Positions 2 to 63,889 of a DNA stretch of 64,000 bases are shown here, in pieces. Positions within the stretch are counted from its first letter, which is position 1. Each line of letters begins with the position of its first letter. The notes under the pieces are model-generated. The model was not told the DNA's origin. It did not search any database and saw only the letters and a program-made list of their open reading frames with translations. The DNA is from a virus, in IMG/VR virus record IMGVR_UViG_3300010160_000035, positions 1-64,000 of that record. One strand, given 5' to 3'. Both the position numbers and the translations under genes were made by a program.

Positions 2-2947
2 TCTAATAATACTACTAGTAAAACAGCTACTACATTTAAAGAAGCTAAAGAAAATCTTATAGAGCAAAGAAAAACTAATAAAGATAGAATTAATCAAATT
101 AACAATAGACTTGGTTCAGTTTATCAATTTTCTAAAAAAGAGGCTCTTGAAAAAGGAGTATACATTGAAAACTTTAAAGAGCTTGAAGCTGAAAGAAAAT
201 CTTTACAAGAAAAAAATGCTTTAATTAAAAAGCAAATTGAAGATTTTTACAATGCTACACAAGAAACTAAAGATTTAGAAGCTAAAAGAAAGTCTGCAAT
301 TAAAGCAATTAGAACTAGAAAAACTAATATTAAAGAAGCATATAGACAAGAATTTGAAGCTACACCAGTTGACAAAATTAATACTAAAGAAGCATTAGAT
401 AATCATTTCTTAGATGTTGAAATTCAAATGTTATTGCATCCATCACAGCTTAAGAATCTTTATTCTCCTGTAGCAGATACTCCTTTAGCATCAAGTAAAA
501 AAGACCACTTGACAATAGAAGATAAAGCTGGTGTACCAATGACTAAGTTATATAATTTAGGATACAATGTACTAGCATCTATTAGGTTTGTATCAGGTAA
601 AGCAGGTGTAGGTCAGTTAGCTACTTGGATTAATTTTACTGACTTGGCACAAAGACATGGATTAAAACTAAATTCTAATTATCCAAATATAGAAATTAAC
701 ATAGAAGGATTTGAAGGCAGTCTTGACTTAGGTAATAATTTAGATGCTACTGGAGAATCTATCTCTATTGTATTATCAGCATTACTAACATCACAAGTGG
801 ATATAGTAAGAGACCCTTATGCAGAAGCTTTAAACATTATTAATCAAACATTAGATACTATTGCCTATATGGTTGTTAGAGGTATTCCTGCAGCAACTAT
901 TATAGATATAATGAAATACCCATACATTTCTGAGTTCTTAAAGCAAGAAAGAATTAATCAATCTATGATTGTAAAATCTACTGGTAGAGCTACAGCAAGC
1001 AATCCAAAAGGTCTTCAATTAAGTAATGAAGCTTTAACAACACAATTCTTACCTGTTTCTTTTGAACCTAAGAAGGTAACAATGGAACAGATTAAAAGTA
1101 AAAACCCTGATATTAAATACAGTGTCCTTGCAATGTTTTTGAATTTAAGAACACAAGCTAGAGATGTTAATAAGGTTAAAAGATATTATTCTCCTGATAC
1201 AAAATACTTAAAAGATAGAAATGCAGTTAATGCACTTGGTGATTTATTTAATGACATTAATAATCCAGAAGTAAAGTCTATTGTAACATTAGAAGAGCAA
1301 GATAAATTAATTACAAATGATTCTTTATTACAAGGATTCCATGAAGGAAGACAGCTTTATGATAAATTATATAACAAGTATTTTTTCTTAGACAGTATTA
1401 AAGAATACCAATTATTTAAAAGAATTATATCTCAGCAGTTAAGATTAAATACTGATGATAAAATCAAATTCTATGAATCAATAGACCAAAACTTAATTAC
1501 CTATTTATTACAAAGACACTCAACATACATTAATGAATCAGGATTAACTTTTGACAAGGTTATGAAAGGTAAAGGTTCTACAGCTAATCTAATAGCTGAC
1601 CTTAGAGAGGATCCTGACTTTGCAGATAATTTATTTGTTAAAAACTTACTTGCTTTAGTAAACAACAGAGGTACAGGTATTGATAACTTTAGGTCTTTTA
1701 AAGGTAAGGGTACTACATCATTTATTAATGAACAAGCAGACTCTTTTGATGAACTAAGAAAAGCAGATCCTACAAAAGCAGCTATACTAGTTATAACAAA
1801 TGCTTTCCAATCAGGTACTTATAATTCAATATTCCAATTAAATAAGTTTTTACCTTATGACTTACAAAAGATATTTCTTTCAGATTTAAGTCAGATTGTA
1901 ACTAAGATGTTAGCAAGTGATTCTATAACAGCAACTCAGATTAATGAATTTATGCATAAGTATTTACTATCTCATACTGAGTATATACCTGAGACTTGGA
2001 AGTTTTCACCTAAATTTATTAAAGAAGCCACTAAGATATTTCCTTATGCTAAAAACAACAAGGGTATTATTTTCTTAGTAAATAAAGGTGTAATAACAGA
2101 TATTAAAGTAGATACTATAGGTAACTATCAAGGTATTGATTACAATAAAAAAGTACCTCTTACAGATAACTTTAATGATGTTACTGTAACAGAATCTGAA
2201 GATGTAACATCTACTGAAAAAATGACTATAGAATCATTAAATATTGATTATAGTCAAGAAGTTAATGTGTATGCAGGTACAAATGAAAATACTAGTTTAA
2301 GTAATTTTTCTTCTGACAAACCTGTTACTGTTAGTGGACAAAAGTTTGATACTGTAGAAGGATATTTCCAAGCAAGAAAAATGGATTATTCTAGTGAATA
2401 TTATCAAAGTAATATTCCAGGCAATGTAGAAATGTCTTTAGCTAAATTAGAAAGATTTAAAAGAGCTAAAGGTTCTAATGCTAGATTAATGGGTAAAGAA
2501 CTAAAAGGACTTAAAGTTAGTGACTGGGATGTTGCAGCTACTGATATTTTAAAAGAAGGTATGTTGCAATCATTTTTGCAAAATCCACAAGCAGCTGCTG
2601 AACTACTAGCTACTGGCAATGCACTACTTACACATAAAAATGAAAGAGGTGTTGAACAAGATAATGGTAGATTTTCAAAATTGCTAATGGAGATTAGAGA
2701 ACAGCTATATCAAATGACTTTGCAAAAGCAAGAAGAAATGCCTACCTTTGAAGAAAAAGAAGAAAAGAATCCACATGAAGTTAAACAAGGTGTAGATCCT
2801 GTTTACCAAGATTTAGCTGATAAAATTGATATTGAAAAATTTGATGCTTTCTTCCCAGACTATACAGAGCTAAGTATTGATGAAAAAATAAATATGCTTA
2901 AAGCAGCAAGTGAAGAAGAAATAAAAATAGTTTGTAGAATACTATGA
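2..2947 (+). CDS. Giant late (probably virion) protein with C-terminal NADAR domain, 5'-truncated
   Basis: The reading frame is open from base 2, so the gene starts before the window and the Met at 428 is internal. The first ~140 visible codons are Lys/Glu-rich and look like coiled coil. A helical region of no recognised family follows. At about 2261-2715 lies a NADAR (YbiA/DUF1768-like) domain: SLSNFSS, then TVEGYFQARK, a WD pair and LLATGNALL with a following DNGRF. NADAR domains bind or hydrolyse ADP-ribose conjugates, including ADP-ribosylated DNA bases. The last ~60 residues are acidic. Its stop overlaps the next start (ATGA at 2944). By analogy with crAss-like phages, giant proteins at the end of the late operon are often packaged and ejected with DNA; that role is inferred. 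Confidence 0.8.
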   Translation, partial: SNNTTSKTATTFKEAKENLIEQRKTNKDRINQINNRLGSVYQFSKKEALEKGVYIENFKELEAERKSLQEKNALIKKQIEDFYNATQETKDLEAKRKSAIKAIRTRKTNIKEAYRQEFEATPVDKINTKEALDNHFLDVEIQMLLHPSQLKNLYSPVADTPLASSKKDHLTIEDKAGVPMTKLYNLGYNVLASIRFVSGKAGVGQLATWINFTDLAQRHGLKLNSNYPNIEINIEGFEGSLDLGNNLDATGESISIVLSALLTSQVDIVRDPYAEALNIINQTLDTIAYMVVRGIPAATIIDIMKYPYISEFLKQERINQSMIVKSTGRATASNPKGLQLSNEALTTQFLPVSFEPKKVTMEQIKSKNPDIKYSVLAMFLNLRTQARDVNKVKRYYSPDTKYLKDRNAVNALGDLFNDINNPEVKSIVTLEEQDKLITNDSLLQGFHEGRQLYDKLYNKYFFLDSIKEYQLFKRIISQQLRLNTDDKIKFYESIDQNLITYLLQRHSTYINESGLTFDKVMKGKGSTANLIADLREDPDFADNLFVKNLLALVNNRGTGIDNFRSFKGKGTTSFINEQADSFDELRKADPTKAAILVITNAFQSGTYNSIFQLNKFLPYDLQKIFLSDLSQIVTKMLASDSITATQINEFMHKYLLSHTEYIPETWKFSPKFIKEATKIFPYAKNNKGIIFLVNKGVITDIKVDTIGNYQGIDYNKKVPLTDNFNDVTVTESEDVTSTEKMTIESLNIDYSQEVNVYAGTNENTSLSNFSSDKPVTVSGQKFDTVEGYFQARKMDYSSEYYQSNIPGNVEMSLAKLERFKRAKGSNARLMGKELKGLKVSDWDVAATDILKEGMLQSFLQNPQAAAELLATGNALLTHKNERGVEQDNGRFSKLLMEIREQLYQMTLQKQEEMPTFEEKEEKNPHEVKQGVDPVYQDLADKIDIEKFDAFFPDYTELSIDEKINMLKAASEEEIKIVCRIL

Positions 2948-5900
2948 AAAAGAATTGTGATACAAATACCCCAGGAACTGTAGTTGCTGACAAAATAAAA
3001 AACCACCAAGTTGCTGACTTATTTCCAGGAAAATGTGAAACTCAGCAAGAAGGTATTAATAGACTTGAATTTTCTAATAATATTCTTGAAGTAAAAACTT
3101 TTGAAGGTAACAGAGGTTATGGTGTTGTAGGAGTTTCTGCTAAAGAATTCATGACTAAAAAAACATTTACTTCTGAATCTAAAGAAGCATTTGAAGAAAA
3201 GATGGGTCCAGCTAAAGCAGTTGAATTAAATACAGCTGTTACATCTATATTACAAAGAGACCTTGGTACTTACATCCATCTTGAAATGGAGAACTTAATT
3301 AATATTTTATGTACTACTGAGTACAAAGACAAAGTATTAATAAGAGCAGGTAACTATAAATCATTAGCAGATTTAAGAGCAGCTAGTAAACTGTCTGAAG
3401 ATAATTTTAATGTATTATACAAGACAGCTAAAAAGCTAATTGAATCAGGTATTACTGAGCAAAAAAAGAAAGACCCTATGGGTAAAGTCTACATTACAGC
3501 AGAGCAAAGATTACTTGCATCTAGTTCATTAGGTGGAACTTCAGATTTAATATTTTTATACTCAGATGTTACAACAGATAACTTTGACTATAAAACAATG
3601 ACTACTAAATATGGTGATATTAGATTTGAAAGAAATAGAGCAAAAATTGTAAACCCAAGTTGGATTCCTTTTTATAAATATGAAGATTGGAACTTACAAC
3701 TACCTAAAACTACATTTGCATTAGAAAAGATTATTGGTGTAAAACAAAATAATAAATGTAGAATTATTCCAATAGCAATGATTTTGGAATATAAAGATGG
3801 AAATCCTACTGGTAAAATAAATCAAATAGAGACATTTGTATCAGCTAAAGATTATTTACAGCAAATACCTATTCAAGAAAAAACAGGTATTGGTAGTTTA
3901 GATGAAGGTATTGAAAAATTAAGCAGACTTAAAGAAAATTACATATATGAATTAGGTCAAGGTATTTCTCGTGAAAGAAAAGAGTTTTTAAAAACTAGAA
4001 TTGACAGACAGACTAGAGCTATTAATGCAATTATTGTAGATCAAGATATATCTAATCTTATAGATGACTACACAGCAGTAGTTAAAAAATATGCTGATGT
4101 AGAAAGTAAAGACTATGCTGTATTAAAGAATATAAAATCAGAAACTGTAGAAGATAAAGTAAACTCTAATTATTTATCATTAGAAGAGCATAGAGATTTA
4201 CTTAAAGAGTTAGGATTGATATCTTCTATTATAGCAGGTTCATATGAATTCTATGATAGAATGGGTATTGATGAAACTGAGTATATTAAATATAAAAGCA
4301 GGTTAAGAATTCTTCAAAATCAAATACTTGTATTAAATGAGCAATTGCAAAATGAATTATTTGCAAGAATTAGTTTAAGTAAAACAGATATAACTGAAAT
4401 AAAAAGTTCTTTTACAGTTAAGACAGTAGACCAAATGTTTAATACTTTTGGTGAAATACAACACCCTGTATTTAGAGAAGCATTTAGGAAAAAAAGTATG
4501 GCTGAATCAGAAGCTAAACTTAAAACACAAAAATTTAAAGAGAAATTAGAAGAGGTTGCTGTTGAATTAGAGAAATGGGGTAAAGCTAATGGACTAGGAT
4601 TATTTGGTGCATATGACAAGTTGATTAATAAATCAACAGGTAATATATATGCTAAGAATAATGCAGAATTTACAAAAAAGCTAAAAGAAGCACAAGAGAA
4701 AAAAGATGCTACTTTTGTAGATAAATATTTTAAACCCAAAGACAATGCTAAAGCAGAACTTACTAAGTTTATTTTAAGAGTTGTTGAAAAAAGTGGATTA
4801 GTACCAGGTAAAGATGATAATAGGATTAATCAGATTTTAGAAGATAATACAGTAGATAACTATAAGTTTAGTGATAAATTCTTTTTTAAATATTATGAAT
4901 TAAAACCACAATATGTAACTTCATTATCTTCTGAAATATATTCTAAAGAGTATATTGAAATTCAAAGAACACCAGCAATAAAAAATTATTATGATTTTTG
5001 GATTAAAACTATGCAGGAGTTTAGAGAGATTACAGATATGGCTAATGACTATACTGCATTGCCTGATAACTTTATCCCTAATTTTAGAGCTGGTCTTATT
5101 GAACAAATGTTTCAAGGTGGATTACCATCTGCAGCATGGGAATCATTCATAGGTATATTTAGACAACAATCTGATGATGTTGAGTTTGGTTATATGACTG
5201 AACTTGCTAAAAAGAAAGATATAGATACTGGTGAGATACTACATGAGATTCCTTTATTTGGTCTTTACCCTATTTACAATAAGCAAAATGTAATAGACAA
5301 CAGTCTTAAGTCTTATGATTTAAATAGAGTGTTATACACATTTGCAGATATAGCTTACAACTATGAGGGTCTAAAAAAAATAGAAGCTGAAATCACTGTT
5401 TTAGGTGATATGATAGCAACTTTTGATATCACTAAAAAAGATTCAAATGGTAAAATTATTAAATCTATTGGTGGAGCTTACAGTAAATTAACAGGTAAAC
5501 AGTTAACAGAGTATCAGACATATCTTAATACAATTAAATTTCATGTCTACGGTATTAAAGAGCAAGGAGACATATTAGATAAAAATGCTACTAAAGTAGT
5601 AAATAAACTTAATGACCTTCAAAGAGCATCTAAAATGATGTTTGAACCTGTAATACAAGTATCAGCATCGTTAGCATCTAAAGTAATGTCTTACTATGAA
5701 GGTGTAAAAGGATTTTACTATACAAGAGGTCAAATGTTTGAAAGTGAAAAAATGCTAGCTTCTGTATTTACAGAAAATGGTAAACTTGCTTCTGCTTTAT
5801 TACAATACTTTGAGTTTTCAGATAAAAATATTGGTGTTAGAGCTAATGAATTGCCTAGTAATTTTCTTGTCAGACTTGCTAATAAAGGAATAGGGTACCT

Positions 5901-6939
5901 TGGATTTAGAAAAGGTTCTGAGTGGATAGATAACAGTATTGGATTATCTATGTTACAAAATTATGGTATAGATGAAAATGGTAAATTTAAAAGATTAAAA
6001 ATGTTACCCAAAGGCTCTAAATCTTTATTACAAAGAGCATCATTAAAAGATGGTAAGCTTGAAATTGAAGGTATGACATTAGATGTGTATAATGATTTTT
6101 CACAAGCAGTAAAAAAAGTATCTAGAAGTATTAAAGGTGAACTTAGTGATAAAGATCAAAGAGCAATTAATTATACAATGCTAGGTAAACTAGCAATGAC
6201 TTACAAAAACTGGTTACCAGATTTGTGGAAAGAGCATATGGGTAGTGTGCAGTATAATAATTATACAGATGCTGTAGTTATTGGTAGGTTTAATGCTATC
6301 TATCAAAACCTTAAAACAGATGAAAGTAAGAAATTTTTATTGTTAAATCAAGCTGCTTGGATAGGATTAGGTAAAATACTATTAGATATACCATTAGCAT
6401 TAATACCAAAAGTAGGATTTAAATTCTCAAAAACTAATGAAGCAAGAGCTAGAGCATTGTTTGAGCAGTTTAAACAAAATAACCCTAATGATAAAAGAAT
6501 TCAAGAATATTCATTTGAAGAATTTTTAGATTACTATGATGGTCAGATAAGAGCAGGTATACAAGAATTGTCAATATACTTAGCATTAATTGGTCTTGTA
6601 CTTTTAGTAGGTGGAGATTGGGATGATGATGGTAAAGCTGATTATCAACAGTATTTAGCATTAAGTTTAACCTATAAAGTTATAAACAGAATGAGAAGAG
6701 AGTTAGGATTTTTCTTAGGTTCTGAAGGTATTGATATTGCTTTAAACACAACTATTCCAGTAACATCTATAGGTCTTGATTTAAAAAGAAGTTTATTAAA
6801 CTTTGTACAAGAAGCTTATGATGATATATATGATATAGATAATCCTTATGATCAATCTGGATATCTACATCATATGTCTAAAATTACACCTCTTGTTAAT
6901 CCTATTAGAAAAGCTTTAGATTTAAAGAGAGAATCATAA
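2944..6939 (+). CDS. Giant late (probably virion) protein with RecB-like PD-(D/E)XK nuclease motifs
   Basis: This 1331-aa protein is coupled to the upstream gene by an ATGA overlap. Near residues 108-117 it has GTYIHLEME, resembling the G-x-x-x-H-x-x-x-E motif of RecB/Cas4-type nucleases. About 90 residues later comes GGTSDLIF and then FDYKT, matching the D...D/E-x-K metal site (about residues 199-217). The middle is long, helical and unrecognised. Near residue 1205-1225 is a hydrophobic segment followed by DWDDDGKAD, a possible calcium-binding loop. The product may act on host or phage DNA during entry, or in packaging; this is inference. It ends the rightward late operon, just before the terminator that faces the leftward block. 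Confidence 0.8.
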   Translation: MKKNCDTNTPGTVVADKIKNHQVADLFPGKCETQQEGINRLEFSNNILEVKTFEGNRGYGVVGVSAKEFMTKKTFTSESKEAFEEKMGPAKAVELNTAVTSILQRDLGTYIHLEMENLINILCTTEYKDKVLIRAGNYKSLADLRAASKLSEDNFNVLYKTAKKLIESGITEQKKKDPMGKVYITAEQRLLASSSLGGTSDLIFLYSDVTTDNFDYKTMTTKYGDIRFERNRAKIVNPSWIPFYKYEDWNLQLPKTTFALEKIIGVKQNNKCRIIPIAMILEYKDGNPTGKINQIETFVSAKDYLQQIPIQEKTGIGSLDEGIEKLSRLKENYIYELGQGISRERKEFLKTRIDRQTRAINAIIVDQDISNLIDDYTAVVKKYADVESKDYAVLKNIKSETVEDKVNSNYLSLEEHRDLLKELGLISSIIAGSYEFYDRMGIDETEYIKYKSRLRILQNQILVLNEQLQNELFARISLSKTDITEIKSSFTVKTVDQMFNTFGEIQHPVFREAFRKKSMAESEAKLKTQKFKEKLEEVAVELEKWGKANGLGLFGAYDKLINKSTGNIYAKNNAEFTKKLKEAQEKKDATFVDKYFKPKDNAKAELTKFILRVVEKSGLVPGKDDNRINQILEDNTVDNYKFSDKFFFKYYELKPQYVTSLSSEIYSKEYIEIQRTPAIKNYYDFWIKTMQEFREITDMANDYTALPDNFIPNFRAGLIEQMFQGGLPSAAWESFIGIFRQQSDDVEFGYMTELAKKKDIDTGEILHEIPLFGLYPIYNKQNVIDNSLKSYDLNRVLYTFADIAYNYEGLKKIEAEITVLGDMIATFDITKKDSNGKIIKSIGGAYSKLTGKQLTEYQTYLNTIKFHVYGIKEQGDILDKNATKVVNKLNDLQRASKMMFEPVIQVSASLASKVMSYYEGVKGFYYTRGQMFESEKMLASVFTENGKLASALLQYFEFSDKNIGVRANELPSNFLVRLANKGIGYLGFRKGSEWIDNSIGLSMLQNYGIDENGKFKRLKMLPKGSKSLLQRASLKDGKLEIEGMTLDVYNDFSQAVKKVSRSIKGELSDKDQRAINYTMLGKLAMTYKNWLPDLWKEHMGSVQYNNYTDAVVIGRFNAIYQNLKTDESKKFLLLNQAAWIGLGKILLDIPLALIPKVGFKFSKTNEARARALFEQFKQNNPNDKRIQEYSFEEFLDYYDGQIRAGIQELSIYLALIGLVLLVGGDWDDDGKADYQQYLALSLTYKVINRMRRELGFFLGSEGIDIALNTTIPVTSIGLDLKRSLLNFVQEAYDDIYDIDNPYDQSGYLHHMSKITPLVNPIRKALDLKRES

Positions 6940-58516: not shown

Positions 58517-58972
58517 ATGAGCAAGATAACATCAACCAGCAAGAATGGAATAAACCTTATCAAGTCATTTGAAGGTTGTAAACTACAAGCATATAATGAT
58601 CCTGGAACTGGAGGATTACCAATTACTATTGGATGGGGTAATACAACTAAAGAAGATGGTAGTAAGTTTAAACTAGGTGATAAAATAACACAAGAAAGAG
58701 CAGATGCTTTATTCTTAAATTTACTTCCTAGATATGAAAAGAAAGTTATTGATAATATTACAGTACTTCTAACACAAAACCAATTTGATGCTTTAGTTTC
58801 TTTCTGTTGGAATTGTGGATACTCATCTACTCTATTCTCATTAATCAATACTAAAACTAGTAATGAAACAGTATATGATTGGTGGATTTCTCACTACATT
58901 AAAGGTGGGGGTAAGATACTAAAAGGTCTAGTTAGACGTAGAAAAGCTGAAGCTGATTTATACTTTGCTTAA
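58517..58972 (+). CDS. Endolysin: T4-type lysozyme (GH24)
   Basis: This 151-aa protein has the GH24 catalytic pattern: E19 (KSFEG), D28 (AYNDPG) and T37 (PITIGWGN), followed by FDALVSFCWNCG and a WWISHYIKGGGK ... GLVRRRKAEADLY ending, as in phage lambdoid/T4-like lysozymes. It cuts the peptidoglycan glycan chain. No signal peptide is present, so it needs a holin (predicted at 61794). Confidence 0.95.
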   Translation: MSKITSTSKNGINLIKSFEGCKLQAYNDPGTGGLPITIGWGNTTKEDGSKFKLGDKITQERADALFLNLLPRYEKKVIDNITVLLTQNQFDALVSFCWNCGYSSTLFSLINTKTSNETVYDWWISHYIKGGGKILKGLVRRRKAEADLYFA

Positions 58973-58989: not shown

Positions 58990-59460
58990 ATGAAGAAATT
59001 CCTACTTTGCCTGCCATTATTGTTAGTATTTACTTTTGTAGGAGGAGATCAACCTTCTGCCTATATACAAGGAGATGTAACTATACAGCCTATTGTAGAG
59101 AATGAAGATTTAGATATTAAATCACAATACATAAGAAGCATCAAAGTATACTACAAAGACCCATTAGAAAAGCCTATCATATTACAGAACAACCAAGCTT
59201 TATACAACTATTGCTCAGATTCAACATTAGTTATTTTTAAATCTGTTGCAGATTCTATAAAAGTACCTAGTGTTAAAAGAATGTCTTGTGAGATAATGGC
59301 TATTATTAACCTAACTAAAAGAGATTCTGAGTGGTTAAAGTCACATATTGTCAATGAAGTTGCAGTAGTAAACACTATTACAGATAACAGATTCTCTGTT
59401 TATATGGATGATACTGAGTACTTTAGAAGACTAATGCTTAAATACAATGCAAAGTATTAA
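58990..59460 (+). CDS. Exported protein of the lysis cassette
   Basis: This 156-aa protein begins MKKFLLCLPLLLVFTFVGGD, a signal peptide. The mature part has two Cys (NYCSD, MSCEI) and no known motif. It is between the lysozyme and the adhesin-like genes. A periplasmic or outer-membrane role in lysis is possible. Confidence 0.7.
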   Translation: MKKFLLCLPLLLVFTFVGGDQPSAYIQGDVTIQPIVENEDLDIKSQYIRSIKVYYKDPLEKPIILQNNQALYNYCSDSTLVIFKSVADSIKVPSVKRMSCEIMAIINLTKRDSEWLKSHIVNEVAVVNTITDNRFSVYMDDTEYFRRLMLKYNAKY

Positions 59461-60331
59461 ATGGATACTGCTATTAGTAACAAGCATAAGTTTTGCTCAA
59501 TGTCCAAATATAGGATTTGAAAGTAATAACTTTAGTGGATGGGTAGGTAGCAGAGGAGCTTGTTGTCCTATAGTTATGACAAATGCAGGTATAGTTGCTA
59601 ATAGACATACTATAACTTCAGGAACAGCAACAGACCCTAGTACTTGTAATGTAGTTCCAATAGTTGCTCCAGGAAGTATTCATTCTGCTAGATTAGGTAA
59701 TAATGATGTTAATGCAGAAGCTGAAGGTTTAAGTTATAATTTTACAGTAACACCAACATCTAATTTAATTACATATCAGTATGCTGTAGTGTTTGAAGAT
59801 CCAGGACATACACCATCACAACAACCTAGATTTGAAGCATCAATAGTTAGAGCTAATGGAACTGTTGTATCATGTACACAATTTACAGCAACTGCAGCTA
59901 GTGGTTTAACAGGATTTCAATTTTGTAATAGCATTGATGTTTTAGGATTACCAGTAATTGTTAGATACAAGAATTGGAGTACAATAGCTGCAGATGTTTC
60001 TGCATACATGGGTCAAACTTTAACTTTAAAATTTAAAACAGGAGACTGCTCACAAGGAGGACACTTTGGTTATGCTTATGTAGATGCTAGTTGTGGACCA
60101 TTACAATTAGCTATAGATTACTGTGTTAATGATATGTATGCAGTAGTTACTGCACCATCAGGATTCTTTACTTACTTATGGTCTACAGGAGAAACTACAC
60201 AAACTATTTATGTAAATCCACTGCAAGCTATTAATGTTACTTGCACTATAACAACTGTCTCAGGCTGCACATCTACAGTATCAGTACCAATAACACCAAT
60301 TGCTAATTTCCCTGCAATCTATACCAATTAA
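59447..60331 (+). CDS. Exported adhesin-like protein with PKD-like C-terminal domain
   Basis: This 294-aa protein starts with MQSIKWILLLVTSISFAQ, a signal peptide. The first domain (CPNIGFESNNFSGWVGSRG...) resembles the domain that starts many large secreted Bacteroidota adhesins. The last ~80 residues (FTYLWSTGETTQTIYVNP ... VSGCTSTVSVPITP) are a PKD/Ig-like repeat found in gliding-motility adhesins. It ends IYTN. It resembles the N-terminal part of a host T9SS adhesin as a separate gene. Confidence 0.75.
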   Translation: MQSIKWILLLVTSISFAQCPNIGFESNNFSGWVGSRGACCPIVMTNAGIVANRHTITSGTATDPSTCNVVPIVAPGSIHSARLGNNDVNAEAEGLSYNFTVTPTSNLITYQYAVVFEDPGHTPSQQPRFEASIVRANGTVVSCTQFTATAASGLTGFQFCNSIDVLGLPVIVRYKNWSTIAADVSAYMGQTLTLKFKTGDCSQGGHFGYAYVDASCGPLQLAIDYCVNDMYAVVTAPSGFFTYLWSTGETTQTIYVNPLQAINVTCTITTVSGCTSTVSVPITPIANFPAIYTN

Positions 60332-60368: not shown

Positions 60369-60929
60369 ATGAAAAATTTGGTAGTGTCAATTATTTTTAT
60401 ATTACTTTGTGCAACATGTTATGCACAAGTACCTACACCCCTTGTTGCCAATGGACAAACTGTCTGTGTAGGTGCTAATCACTACTATGGGGATCAAGTA
60501 ATTACACCATCATCTACTTATGCATTTAGTATAACACCAGTTCAAGCATTTAGTGTTGTAGGAAAACAAATAAATGTTACTTGGAATATACAAGGAGTAT
60601 ATACTATTACTATGACAGAAACAACATCTTCAGGATGCTTGTATACAACTACTTGTATTATTACTGTATTGCCTCCTATAACAATAGCATTAGATCCTAT
60701 TGTTGTATGTCAAGATGGATTACCACAAACTATAACAGGAACTAACATTGGCTCTAACCCATCTTTTAGTGGAGTAGGAGTATCTAATAATACATTTAAT
60801 CCTTCAGGTATATTACCTGGGATATATACTATAAACCTAACTTCAACAACAGCTAATGGTTGTGCTACAGTAGGCACCACAACAGCAACAATAAATCCAC
60901 TACCAACAGGCATTATATATACAGATTAA
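60369..60929 (+). CDS. Exported adhesin-like protein with PKD/Ig-like repeats
   Basis: The 186-aa product starts with MKNLVVSIIFILLCATCYAQ, a signal peptide; this Met (60369) is chosen because it follows a promoter, while the open frame starts earlier. It has two Ig/PKD-like repeats (VTWNIQGVYTITMTETTSSG and GILPGIYTINLTSTTANG) like those of secreted Bacteroidota adhesins, and ends IIYTD, close to the IYTN end of the gene before. Its stop overlaps the next start by one base. Confidence 0.75.
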   Translation: MKNLVVSIIFILLCATCYAQVPTPLVANGQTVCVGANHYYGDQVITPSSTYAFSITPVQAFSVVGKQINVTWNIQGVYTITMTETTSSGCLYTTTCIITVLPPITIALDPIVVCQDGLPQTITGTNIGSNPSFSGVGVSNNTFNPSGILPGIYTINLTSTTANGCATVGTTTATINPLPTGIIYTD

Positions 60930-61486
60930 TGAAACTATATGCATTGTTTTGTTTAATTAGTTTAAATATAAATGCACAGACACTTAAAGAATATGAACTA
61001 TGCAATGACTATTTAACTAAAGAAATTAGAGCTGTAACTACAAATGCTGTTGTAAGTTGGGAGGTTTCACCTTATGTACCATACCAAGTAAGTAATAATG
61101 TTATGACTATTACTTTTAGCAGTACAGGCTATTATGTTATAAGTGCTGATTTTAGAAGTGGTGATTGTTATAAAGAAGATAAAATAATAATAATAATAAA
61201 AGAATGTACAGAGACTTTTATTTATTTTCCCAATAGCTTTACACCTAATGGTGATAATGACAATGAAAGCTTTGGACCAAAAGGAATAAATGTTTATGAT
61301 TTTAAAATGTATGTATATAACAGATGGGGAGAGTTAATCTTCACTGCAAAGGATATAAGTGATAAATGGAATGGCTATTATAAAGATAGAATATGTCAAA
61401 GTGATATATATGTTTATAAAGCATTCTATAAAGATAAAAGAGGTAAGGAGTATAATAAAATTGGTAAAATAGCACTAATCAAATAA
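60929..61486 (+). CDS. Exported protein with T9SS type B (CHU_C) sorting domain
   Basis: This 185-aa protein has a signal peptide (MKLYALFCLISLNINAQ) and one Ig-like domain (residues ~18-95). Residues 97-185 form a gliding-motility-associated C-terminal domain (CHU_C): YFPNSFTPNGDNDN, then YVYNRWGELIF, KWNGYYKD and DIYVYKAFYKDKRG with a final KIGKIALIK. In hosts this domain sends proteins through the T9SS. With the two genes before it, it looks like an adhesin split over three genes. A TAATG overlap couples it to the preceding gene. Confidence 0.88.
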   Translation: MKLYALFCLISLNINAQTLKEYELCNDYLTKEIRAVTTNAVVSWEVSPYVPYQVSNNVMTITFSSTGYYVISADFRSGDCYKEDKIIIIIKECTETFIYFPNSFTPNGDNDNESFGPKGINVYDFKMYVYNRWGELIFTAKDISDKWNGYYKDRICQSDIYVYKAFYKDKRGKEYNKIGKIALIK

Positions 61487-61810: not shown

Positions 61811-62051
61811 AGACTCATTCATTGAATCCCTTAAAGGTAGCAGTGGTAAAATAGACCATAAAAGATTAACAGTATTAGCTTTTGTATTGATGTTTGTTGG
61901 TATAACTATAGTAGGCTTGTATAAAAAAACACCTATTGTAAACCAAGCATTAATGGAAACTATACTGTATATAATTGGATCTGTTATATTAGGAGGGATG
62001 GGATTAACAAAAATAAAAACAAAAACAGAAACAACTACAAATGAAACTTAG
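61794..62051 (+). CDS. Probable holin
   Basis: The 85-aa product begins MSKTTKDSFIESLKGSSG at 61794, overlapping the previous gene by 17 bases; the frame is open from 61758. It has two membrane segments (LTVLAFVLMFVGITIVGLY and ETILYIIGSVILGGMGL) and a polar C-terminus (KIKTKTETTTNET), a common holin layout. It would release the lysozyme and the M15 peptidase. Confidence 0.7.
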   Translation: MSKTTKDSFIESLKGSSGKIDHKRLTVLAFVLMFVGITIVGLYKKTPIVNQALMETILYIIGSVILGGMGLTKIKTKTETTTNET

Positions 62052-62553
62052 TAAAAACTTCACATTAGATGAGTTACTCAAGTCACCATCTGCAACCAGG
62101 TGGGGCTTTGAAGAACAGTTTACACCTACACAAGACATAGTAAATAACCTTACTTTGTTGTGTAATAAAGTGTTACAACCTATTAGAGATATTCTAAAAG
62201 ATACATTAACAGTATCATCTGGATATAGATGTCCTAGATTAAATGCTAAAATTGGTGGTGCCTACACTATTATTAATGGTAAACCTGTACAAAGTTCACA
62301 GCATTGTTTTGGACAAGCTGCAGATATTGGTTATACTAAACTAGGTGCAGAGCATAACAACTTAATTTTAGCAGCTATCAAAGAATTAATGTCTGATCCA
62401 ACTTTTGTATTTGACCAATGTATAGTAGAATTTGGTACAGATACTAATCCTGCTTGGGTACATATTTCTTATTCAGAGAGAAAAAACAGAATGCAAGTGC
62501 TTAGAGCATACAAGTCAGGTAAAAAAACATTATATAAAGAATGGAAACTATGA
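62041..62553 (+). CDS. Peptidoglycan peptidase M15 (D-Ala-D-Ala carboxypeptidase-like endolysin)
   Basis: This 170-aa protein has the M15 zinc site: SGYRCPRLNAKIGG, H88 and D95 (SSQHCFGQAADIG) and H141 (AWVHISY). Such phage enzymes cut peptidoglycan cross-bridges or stem peptides. It is the second lytic enzyme of the cassette, next to the GH24 lysozyme. Confidence 0.92.
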   Translation: MKLSKNFTLDELLKSPSATRWGFEEQFTPTQDIVNNLTLLCNKVLQPIRDILKDTLTVSSGYRCPRLNAKIGGAYTIINGKPVQSSQHCFGQAADIGYTKLGAEHNNLILAAIKELMSDPTFVFDQCIVEFGTDTNPAWVHISYSERKNRMQVLRAYKSGKKTLYKEWKL

Positions 62554-63127: not shown

Positions 63128-63889
63128 ATGATAACATTAAACCAAATGATTTATCAAGTCTATGAAGGACTTCAGATTACATCTGATGATACTTCATTAG
63201 ATAAAAGATTAATTAGAGATTTAATTAATCAATCAAGAGCTAATTGGATTAGAAAAGAACACAACAAGAACAGAAGTATTGATGATAATATCATCCAAGA
63301 TTTAGGTTGTATAGACATTGAACTTACAGATAGAGTATCAGCTAATTGCTGTGATATATCTACAGAATGTAGGATTCTCAGATCTAAAGAAAGAATACCT
63401 AATGCTATTGAGTTAAACCATGAAAAGATAATCACTAGAATATCAGCAGTAGACTTTATGTCTATTCCTATTATATTTATGGATTATGATGCTGCTATTT
63501 ACTTTGGTAATGGTAGATACAATAAGAAAGCTTTAGCTGCTTTCATTAAGAACAACTACTTATATATTATATATAACAAAGGTGCATTCAATATGCTAAT
63601 TGAGAAACTAAATGCTCAAGGTGTATTTGAAGACCCTACAGAAGCTGCATCATTTACTAATGATTGTGGTACACCATGCTTTACTTGGGATTCTCGTTAT
63701 CCTATTAATGCTTGGATGTGGCAGACTTTAGTTAAACCAGAAGTACTTAATGAATTAAGAAGCAAGAGAACTCTATACAGAGATGATAACAACAATGCTA
63801 AGGATGATGCTATTCCATCAGTAGCAGCTAATTTTACACAAGCTGGTACAGATCCTGGACAAGGTAGACAGAAACAACAAGAAGAATGA
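63128..63889 (+). CDS. Probable head-tail connector/adaptor protein
   Basis: This 253-aa protein starts with a helical pair (TLNQMIYQVYEGLQITSDDT...), has a beta-rich middle and a conserved-looking CFTWDSRYPINAWMWQTLV near residue 187, and a polar tail. It resembles the P22 gp4-like tail accessory protein reported in Crassvirales (from memory). It follows the lysis cassette and overlaps the next gene by ATGA, so tail genes probably continue beyond the window. Confidence 0.6.
   Translation: MITLNQMIYQVYEGLQITSDDTSLDKRLIRDLINQSRANWIRKEHNKNRSIDDNIIQDLGCIDIELTDRVSANCCDISTECRILRSKERIPNAIELNHEKIITRISAVDFMSIPIIFMDYDAAIYFGNGRYNKKALAAFIKNNYLYIIYNKGAFNMLIEKLNAQGVFEDPTEAASFTNDCGTPCFTWDSRYPINAWMWQTLVKPEVLNELRSKRTLYRDDNNNAKDDAIPSVAANFTQAGTDPGQGRQKQQEE

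Follow-up and report, generated by a model that had tools for sequence, protein, structure and literature searches.

A phage protein with a type IX secretion type B sorting domain as the probable anchor subunit of a three-polypeptide adhesin

The 64,000-nucleotide stretch analyzed here (the window; positions 1 to 64,000 of IMG/VR virus record IMGVR_UViG_3300010160_000035) encodes a secreted protein, the anchor (60929..61486, plus strand), that combines an immunoglobulin (Ig)-like domain with a type B (CHU_C) sorting domain of the type IX secretion system (T9SS). The genes of two further secreted proteins, the head and the stalk, lie directly upstream, and the gene order is head, stalk, anchor. 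From comparison of this trio with its counterparts in other phages and in bacteria, it is probable (about 60%) that the anchor is the export and anchoring subunit of a split adhesin, which would consist of three polypeptides and be related to the single-chain type B adhesins of Bacteroidota. As facts of the sequence, the sorting domain, the trio, its single-chain counterparts, the cut positions, the tail motif and its matching between subunits, and the absence of a shuttle gene from the tested contigs are firm.

The anchor reading frame begins with an ATG at 60929, ends with its stop codon at 61486 and encodes 185 amino acids. In hmmscan searches, residues 99-174 matched TIGR04131 (Bac_Flav_CTERM) with 50.7 bits (E 1.5e-13; curated cut-off, 35 bits), and residues 100-174 matched PF13585 (CHU_C) with 47.7 bits (E 1.7e-12; curated cut-off, 27 bits), and both scores are well beyond the chance level. 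The original prediction, made from the letters of the window, had placed a T9SS type B sorting domain in this gene and named these two profiles as its check; with both scores above threshold, it is borne out. The sorting domain with its flank spans residues 93-185 (61205..61483, plus strand; profile match, 99-174), and seven relatives could be aligned with the anchor. By inspection, the N-terminus of the anchor, MKLYALFCLISLNINA|Q, resembles a Sec signal peptide (60929..60976, plus strand) with probable cleavage before the Gln, and the same pattern is kept in the seven relatives. The virus record (79,638 bases) contains one CHU_C match, and among the trio, the sorting domain is present only in the anchor. 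No match to the type A sorting domain, TIGR04183, was found in the window phage. The stalks of two relatives gave sub-threshold scores of 14-15 bits with this profile, which were attributed to a fortuitous likeness between Ig folds and rejected.

The original prediction saw one piece of this locus and overlooked that the anchor is one third of a conserved set. The stalk (60369..60929, plus strand) is a secreted protein of 186 amino acids with two PKD/Ig-like domains, recognized by a weak PKD_4 match and an alignment of the family; in the counterpart from L190, PKD_6 exceeds its cut-off. The stop codon of the stalk overlaps the start codon of the anchor (TAATG). The head (59447..60331, plus strand) is a secreted protein of 294 amino acids with homology to the head found at the N-terminus of CHU_C adhesins from bacteria. 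By inspection, both head and stalk start with signal-peptide-like sequences that end in A-Q. The gene set is kept in crAss-like IMG/VR contigs, one of which (L012) has only its end, and the trio is also conserved in unrelated phages. PHROGs provided no usable match for the head, stalk or anchor.

For comparison, 80 bacterial contigs were retrieved whose CHU_C domains were the closest. In these contigs, CHU_C mostly terminates long proteins, on the order of 1000 amino acids, except for a standalone type B protein of 142 amino acids (L053). The profile of the head family matched the N-termini of bacterial single-chain CHU_C proteins with 234, 216, 160 and 151 bits, and the stalk family matched the middle of bacterial CHU_C proteins weakly. 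A second head type from the same phage clade (L002, L008) matched the head of the bacterial CHU_C protein L048 with 141 bits. These head matches therefore indicate that one bacterial chain corresponds to three phage genes in the same order. Within one phage clade, the head type is swapped while the stalk and anchor are retained. The only sequence hit with a solved structure was Grappling hook protein A of Aureispira (PDB 9flp), whose C-terminus matches the anchor profile with 34 bits; unlike the trio, this protein is a single chain of 5898 amino acids.

Single-chain phage homologues settled the positions of the cuts, not the binding mode of the tails. At the border between stalk and anchor, such proteins read '..TVYPQPTLDSISP-YNPFYELCEGDS' and continue into an Ig domain like that of the anchor; in split phages, '..VYPVPTISPISHD' is an example of a stalk end, and 'QQTIELCEDYKN' is an example of the start of a mature anchor. 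At the border between head and stalk, a single chain reads 'LVNPPMVVVGNITS-LDTICYLSS'; in split phages, the head ends with 'INPSPIVVGNIIHN' or 'QPTQFNVGNITHN', and the stalk starts with 'QSTVNPDTVCYQT'. In the single-chain phage homologues, the aligned sequence runs uninterrupted across both cut sites. Nearly all mature split anchors, with cleavage sites assigned by a simple rule, have only 6-10 residues ahead of the conserved Cys. Based on comparison with PKD repeats, it is likely that at both cuts, the upstream chain retains strand A of the Ig/PKD domain that follows. Accounting for the single-chain phage homologues, the C-terminal tail of the window stalk, PTGIIYTD (60903..60926, plus strand), may represent strand A of the anchor Ig domain; it is near-invariant in seven stalks, and all full-length stalks of the crAss-like set terminate in PTG[IV]IYTD. 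Similarly, the C-terminal tail of the window head, FPAIYTN with its preceding residue (60305..60328, plus strand), may represent strand A of the first stalk domain, and the large upstream (head) proteins terminate in IYTN or IIHSD.

The tail motif [ILVF]x[HT][ND]-COOH ends 30 of the 33 distinct open reading frames (ORFs) that immediately precede a short CHU_C gene. Among the other ORFs of the same loci, it was found in 11/656, nine of which are missed heads or stalks, leaving 2/647. Such tails are borne by heads of five groups without mutual BLAST similarity; the head list was gathered partly via the tail pattern, and the stalk figure (30/33) is the unbiased one. Within a phage, the similarity of head and stalk tails reached 377, compared with 227.5 after shuffling (standard deviation 30.2, p=5e-5; relatedness not removed). 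Tail sequence seems to go with the phage and not with the family of the head. In L171 and L173, which have a common head type, the head tails INHN and VFTN resemble those of their own stalks, IEHN and IFTN, respectively, and in L196, the stalk breaks the motif (NSDN) and the head breaks it similarly (SDQN).

In chaperone-usher and type V pili, subunits are joined by donor-strand complementation, in which a free terminal strand completes the Ig-type fold of the next subunit. By analogy with this process, the mechanism of trio assembly may be proposed. The head, stalk and anchor would each enter the periplasm through Sec, after which the tail of the head would complete the first domain of the stalk and the tail of the stalk would complete the Ig domain of the anchor. 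The CHU_C domain of the anchor may engage the PorP/SprF shuttle of the host, and the complex may be carried via the T9SS to the surface of the infected cell on the signal of the anchor, with the head outermost. The head and stalk, which lack a C-terminal sorting domain, would be exported by piggyback. The junctions seen in the sequence are compatible with an incomplete Ig fold and a free strand on the neighboring subunit. In contrast to the pili, the trio consists of three different subunits with C-terminal tails and involves no pilus usher.

Type B signals require a cognate PorP/SprF protein (PMC12618676; compare PMC9143113). No match to PF11751 (PorP/SprF) was found in the window phage, in its eight relatives or in 16 other contigs of phages that were searched, and these contigs may be incomplete; the same search was positive in 7 of 7 bacterial genomes. 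The shuttle of the host would therefore have to be borrowed, a point that the original prediction also overlooked. Flavobacterium johnsoniae has orphan type B substrates that are served by a shuttle encoded elsewhere (PMC12618676), so the missing linked gene does not exclude type B membership.

Several results weigh against the proposed split adhesin. The export of partners lacking a sorting domain on one T9SS signal is not an established process. Taken by itself, the anchor gives an ambiguous answer on the split, since its short N-terminus could itself be strand A, and the matching of head and stalk tails is confounded by shared ancestry. In addition, AlphaFold2 models of the anchor (8 sequences) and the stalk (7 sequences) were poor, with mean pLDDT confidence scores of 55 and 57, respectively, and gave no support for docking.

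To assess the distribution of the trio, a profile of phage CHU_C domains was compared with IMG/VR, which yielded 416 confirmed stretches; the analysis covers the best 80 of the 416. Short CHU_C genes (<=260 amino acids) account for 46 of the 78 complete phage ORFs examined, in a sample that was ranked by similarity to the window domain and is hence biased towards split forms; the remaining ORFs are mostly single chains of about 650-830 amino acids. Some of the phage contigs are near copies, and the anchors form 25 clusters at 60% identity. In the bacterial control, only 3 of the more than 150 CHU_C matches listed (30 genomes) fell within this length, and two of these 3 lie at contig ends; this control used the split-anchor profile and has the same bias towards split forms. 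Split trios were found in crAss-like phages and in T4-like phages (with head-tail adaptor and UvsX), and in the latter, the trio lies near neck, tail or replication genes. A common single-chain type comes after a tail tube gene and carries an SprB repeat, PKD_6 and CHU_C. A tblastn search of 50,697 phage records matched two huge uncultured phages and a 4-kb fragment only, and no cultured phage.

Further single chains accompany these forms. T4-like phages L198, L202, L203, L213, L235 and others encode single-chain CHU_C adhesins of 654-830 amino acids, many directly after the tail tube gene. In L202, a single gene for 819 amino acids contains the head, SprB repeat, PKD_6 and CHU_C, with stalk and anchor parts homologous to those of the trio; unlike the trio, such proteins have one chain, one signal peptide and no free tails. 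The SprB repeat of L202 resembles the gliding adhesin of the host. The two huge uncultured phages, each of ~640 kb (L124, LR756502.1; L125, LR745206.1), encode full-length CHU_C adhesins of 732 and >1422 amino acids and have three to four CHU_C places each. One split-trio phage also has a second, single-chain CHU_C-like protein of 1040 amino acids downstream (approximately L183:8050-11172).

In comparison with the near relative L003, the ratio of nonsynonymous to synonymous substitution rates (dN/dS) is 0.279 for the head, 0.183 for the stalk and 0.154 for the anchor, and the trio genes are under purifying selection. The trio has a dS of 0.16-0.20, versus 0.40-0.79 for three neighboring genes. 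This low value, common to the three genes and unlike that of their neighbors, suggests that the trio is exchanged as a block. The original prediction further suggested that the host T9SS places the anchor on or outside the cell surface. The genuine type B domain and the purifying selection on its gene are consistent with that suggestion, and transport of the anchor to the host surface by the T9SS of the host would be the most economical reading; the export itself is predicted.

The same observations may be read in other ways. It is conceivable, although unlikely, that only the anchor is T9SS cargo displayed on the infected cell, as in the original prediction, and that the head and stalk are separate periplasmic proteins whose tails are a short motif for binding another host or phage protein. 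The anchor alone bears the sorting domain, standalone type B proteins occur in bacteria (L053), and a single partner shared by head and stalk could account for their having the same tail. However, bacteria and other phages have head, stalk and anchor as one chain, the tails correspond to the segment that runs into the next domain in those chains, and the three genes are apparently exchanged together. It is scarcely credible that the trio is a decayed host adhesin gene interrupted by stop codons. A single-chain gene of bacteria would bear a superficial resemblance to the trio if stops had broken it up, but every piece here has its own start and signal peptide, dN/dS is 0.15-0.28, and the same cuts recur across divergent phages (the 25 anchor clusters).

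The genomic neighborhood raises two further alternatives. The window phage is crAss-like, because CrAss_Ring_2 (63128-63889, family match), portal and major head protein were found. Structural genes nearby (Ring2 here, the tail tube in T4-like phages) and a weak Hoc-like PHROG match of a single-chain phage homologue (31 bits) could point to virion components, such as a fiber or decoration, with the sorting domain as a leftover of a captured host gene. This is improbable, as all three proteins start with signal-peptide-like sequences, which proteins that assemble in the cytoplasm would not be expected to have. The sorting domain is also kept across hundreds of stretches, with an anchor dN/dS of 0.154. 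The window trio sits between an endolysin of the phage lysozyme type upstream (58517..58972, plus strand; PF00959, 106.7 bits) and an M15 peptidase endolysin downstream (62041..62553, plus strand; PF08291, 42.3 bits; phrog_894), both of which are treated as neighbors only. The original prediction placed the anchor inside a lysis cassette; the position holds in the window but is not general, as the same genes are placed elsewhere in other phages, near neck, tail or replication genes in T4-like phages. Participation in lysis, such as breakage of the outer membrane, is therefore slightly less plausible still than a place in the virion, and profile searches, including PHROGs, gave no significant match of the head, stalk or anchor to any endolysin, holin or spanin family. 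The timing late in infection that was also predicted has the adjoining structural and lysis genes as its sole basis.

A fourth secreted protein, P156 (58990..59460, plus strand), precedes the trio and is one of the three neighbors with high dS. It was considered as a core part and rejected, as it is missing near most trios, and it is regarded as an accessory companion with family members in further phages. A bacterial origin was likewise set aside: no match was found in 296 Bacteroidota genomes, in a search that had no positive control. The family comprises small secreted proteins of 156-174 amino acids (window 58990-59460; L118, L119, L120, L121, L122), found only in phages in this sample, and it adjoins the trio in crAss-like phages and phoH in T4-like phages. 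Elsewhere in the window, an ORF of 1331 amino acids (2944-6939) has no PHROG match. In other contigs, a UvsX-like recombinase is split by a putative intein (L165:6326-8937; weak Hint match, with the remainder resuming downstream), and in a viral contig fragment (L004:3-6753), the genes that come after a CHU_C C-terminus are radical-SAM-like and iron/2-oxoglutarate-oxygenase-like, as judged by eye.

Phage cargo of the T9SS is already published (PMC7468147; PMC6949934). The Cryophage genes likewise carry T9SS sorting domains, but these belong to type A and occur on an endoglucanase, a glycoside hydrolase and a PA14 protein, in contrast to the type B split adhesin described here (PMC7468147). In cluster 2 crAss-like phages, T9SS sorting domains are reported upstream of head genes, as in the window; the relevant passage of that report presents them in the context of BACON domains and describes neither their type nor a split form (PMC6949934). 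Among bacterial systems, the type B adhesins SprB of F. johnsoniae and PG1035 of Porphyromonas gingivalis share the sorting domain, homologous heads and PKD-type repeats with the trio; however, a bacterial type B adhesin is one chain, commonly with a porP/sprF gene linked to it (PMC12618676), whereas here there are three chains and no shuttle gene. The open-licence papers searched yielded no description of a split type B adhesin or its tail.

Based on the results presented above, a wider proposal may be made, which we hold tentatively and at somewhat short of even odds: that many uncultivated phages of Bacteroidota, of unrelated types, share a surface-display kit of swappable heads, a constant stalk and a CHU_C anchor, joined by a C-terminal strand tag, [ILVF]x[HT][ND]-COOH, through which each following Ig domain is completed, with the trio exported by the host T9SS on the signal of the anchor and a borrowed host shuttle, and two of the subunits by piggyback. 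The most likely purpose of the split adhesin would be adhesion of the infected cell or receptor blocking against further phages, because the heads are host adhesin heads that are exchanged between phages; superinfection exclusion has been proposed for the Cryophage cargo as well (PMC7468147). If the proposal is true, infected Bacteroidota would have their surface remodeled by phages via the T9SS of the host itself, with an adhesin assembled by strand pairing of three secreted chains. This implies that the T9SS could export multi-chain cargo on a single signal, and it makes testable whether one sorting domain carries folded partners that lack one across the outer membrane. In general, unrelated heads may be linked to a surface anchor by a short tag, and crAss-like and T4-like phages would have a candidate mechanism for superinfection exclusion or for the clumping of cells.
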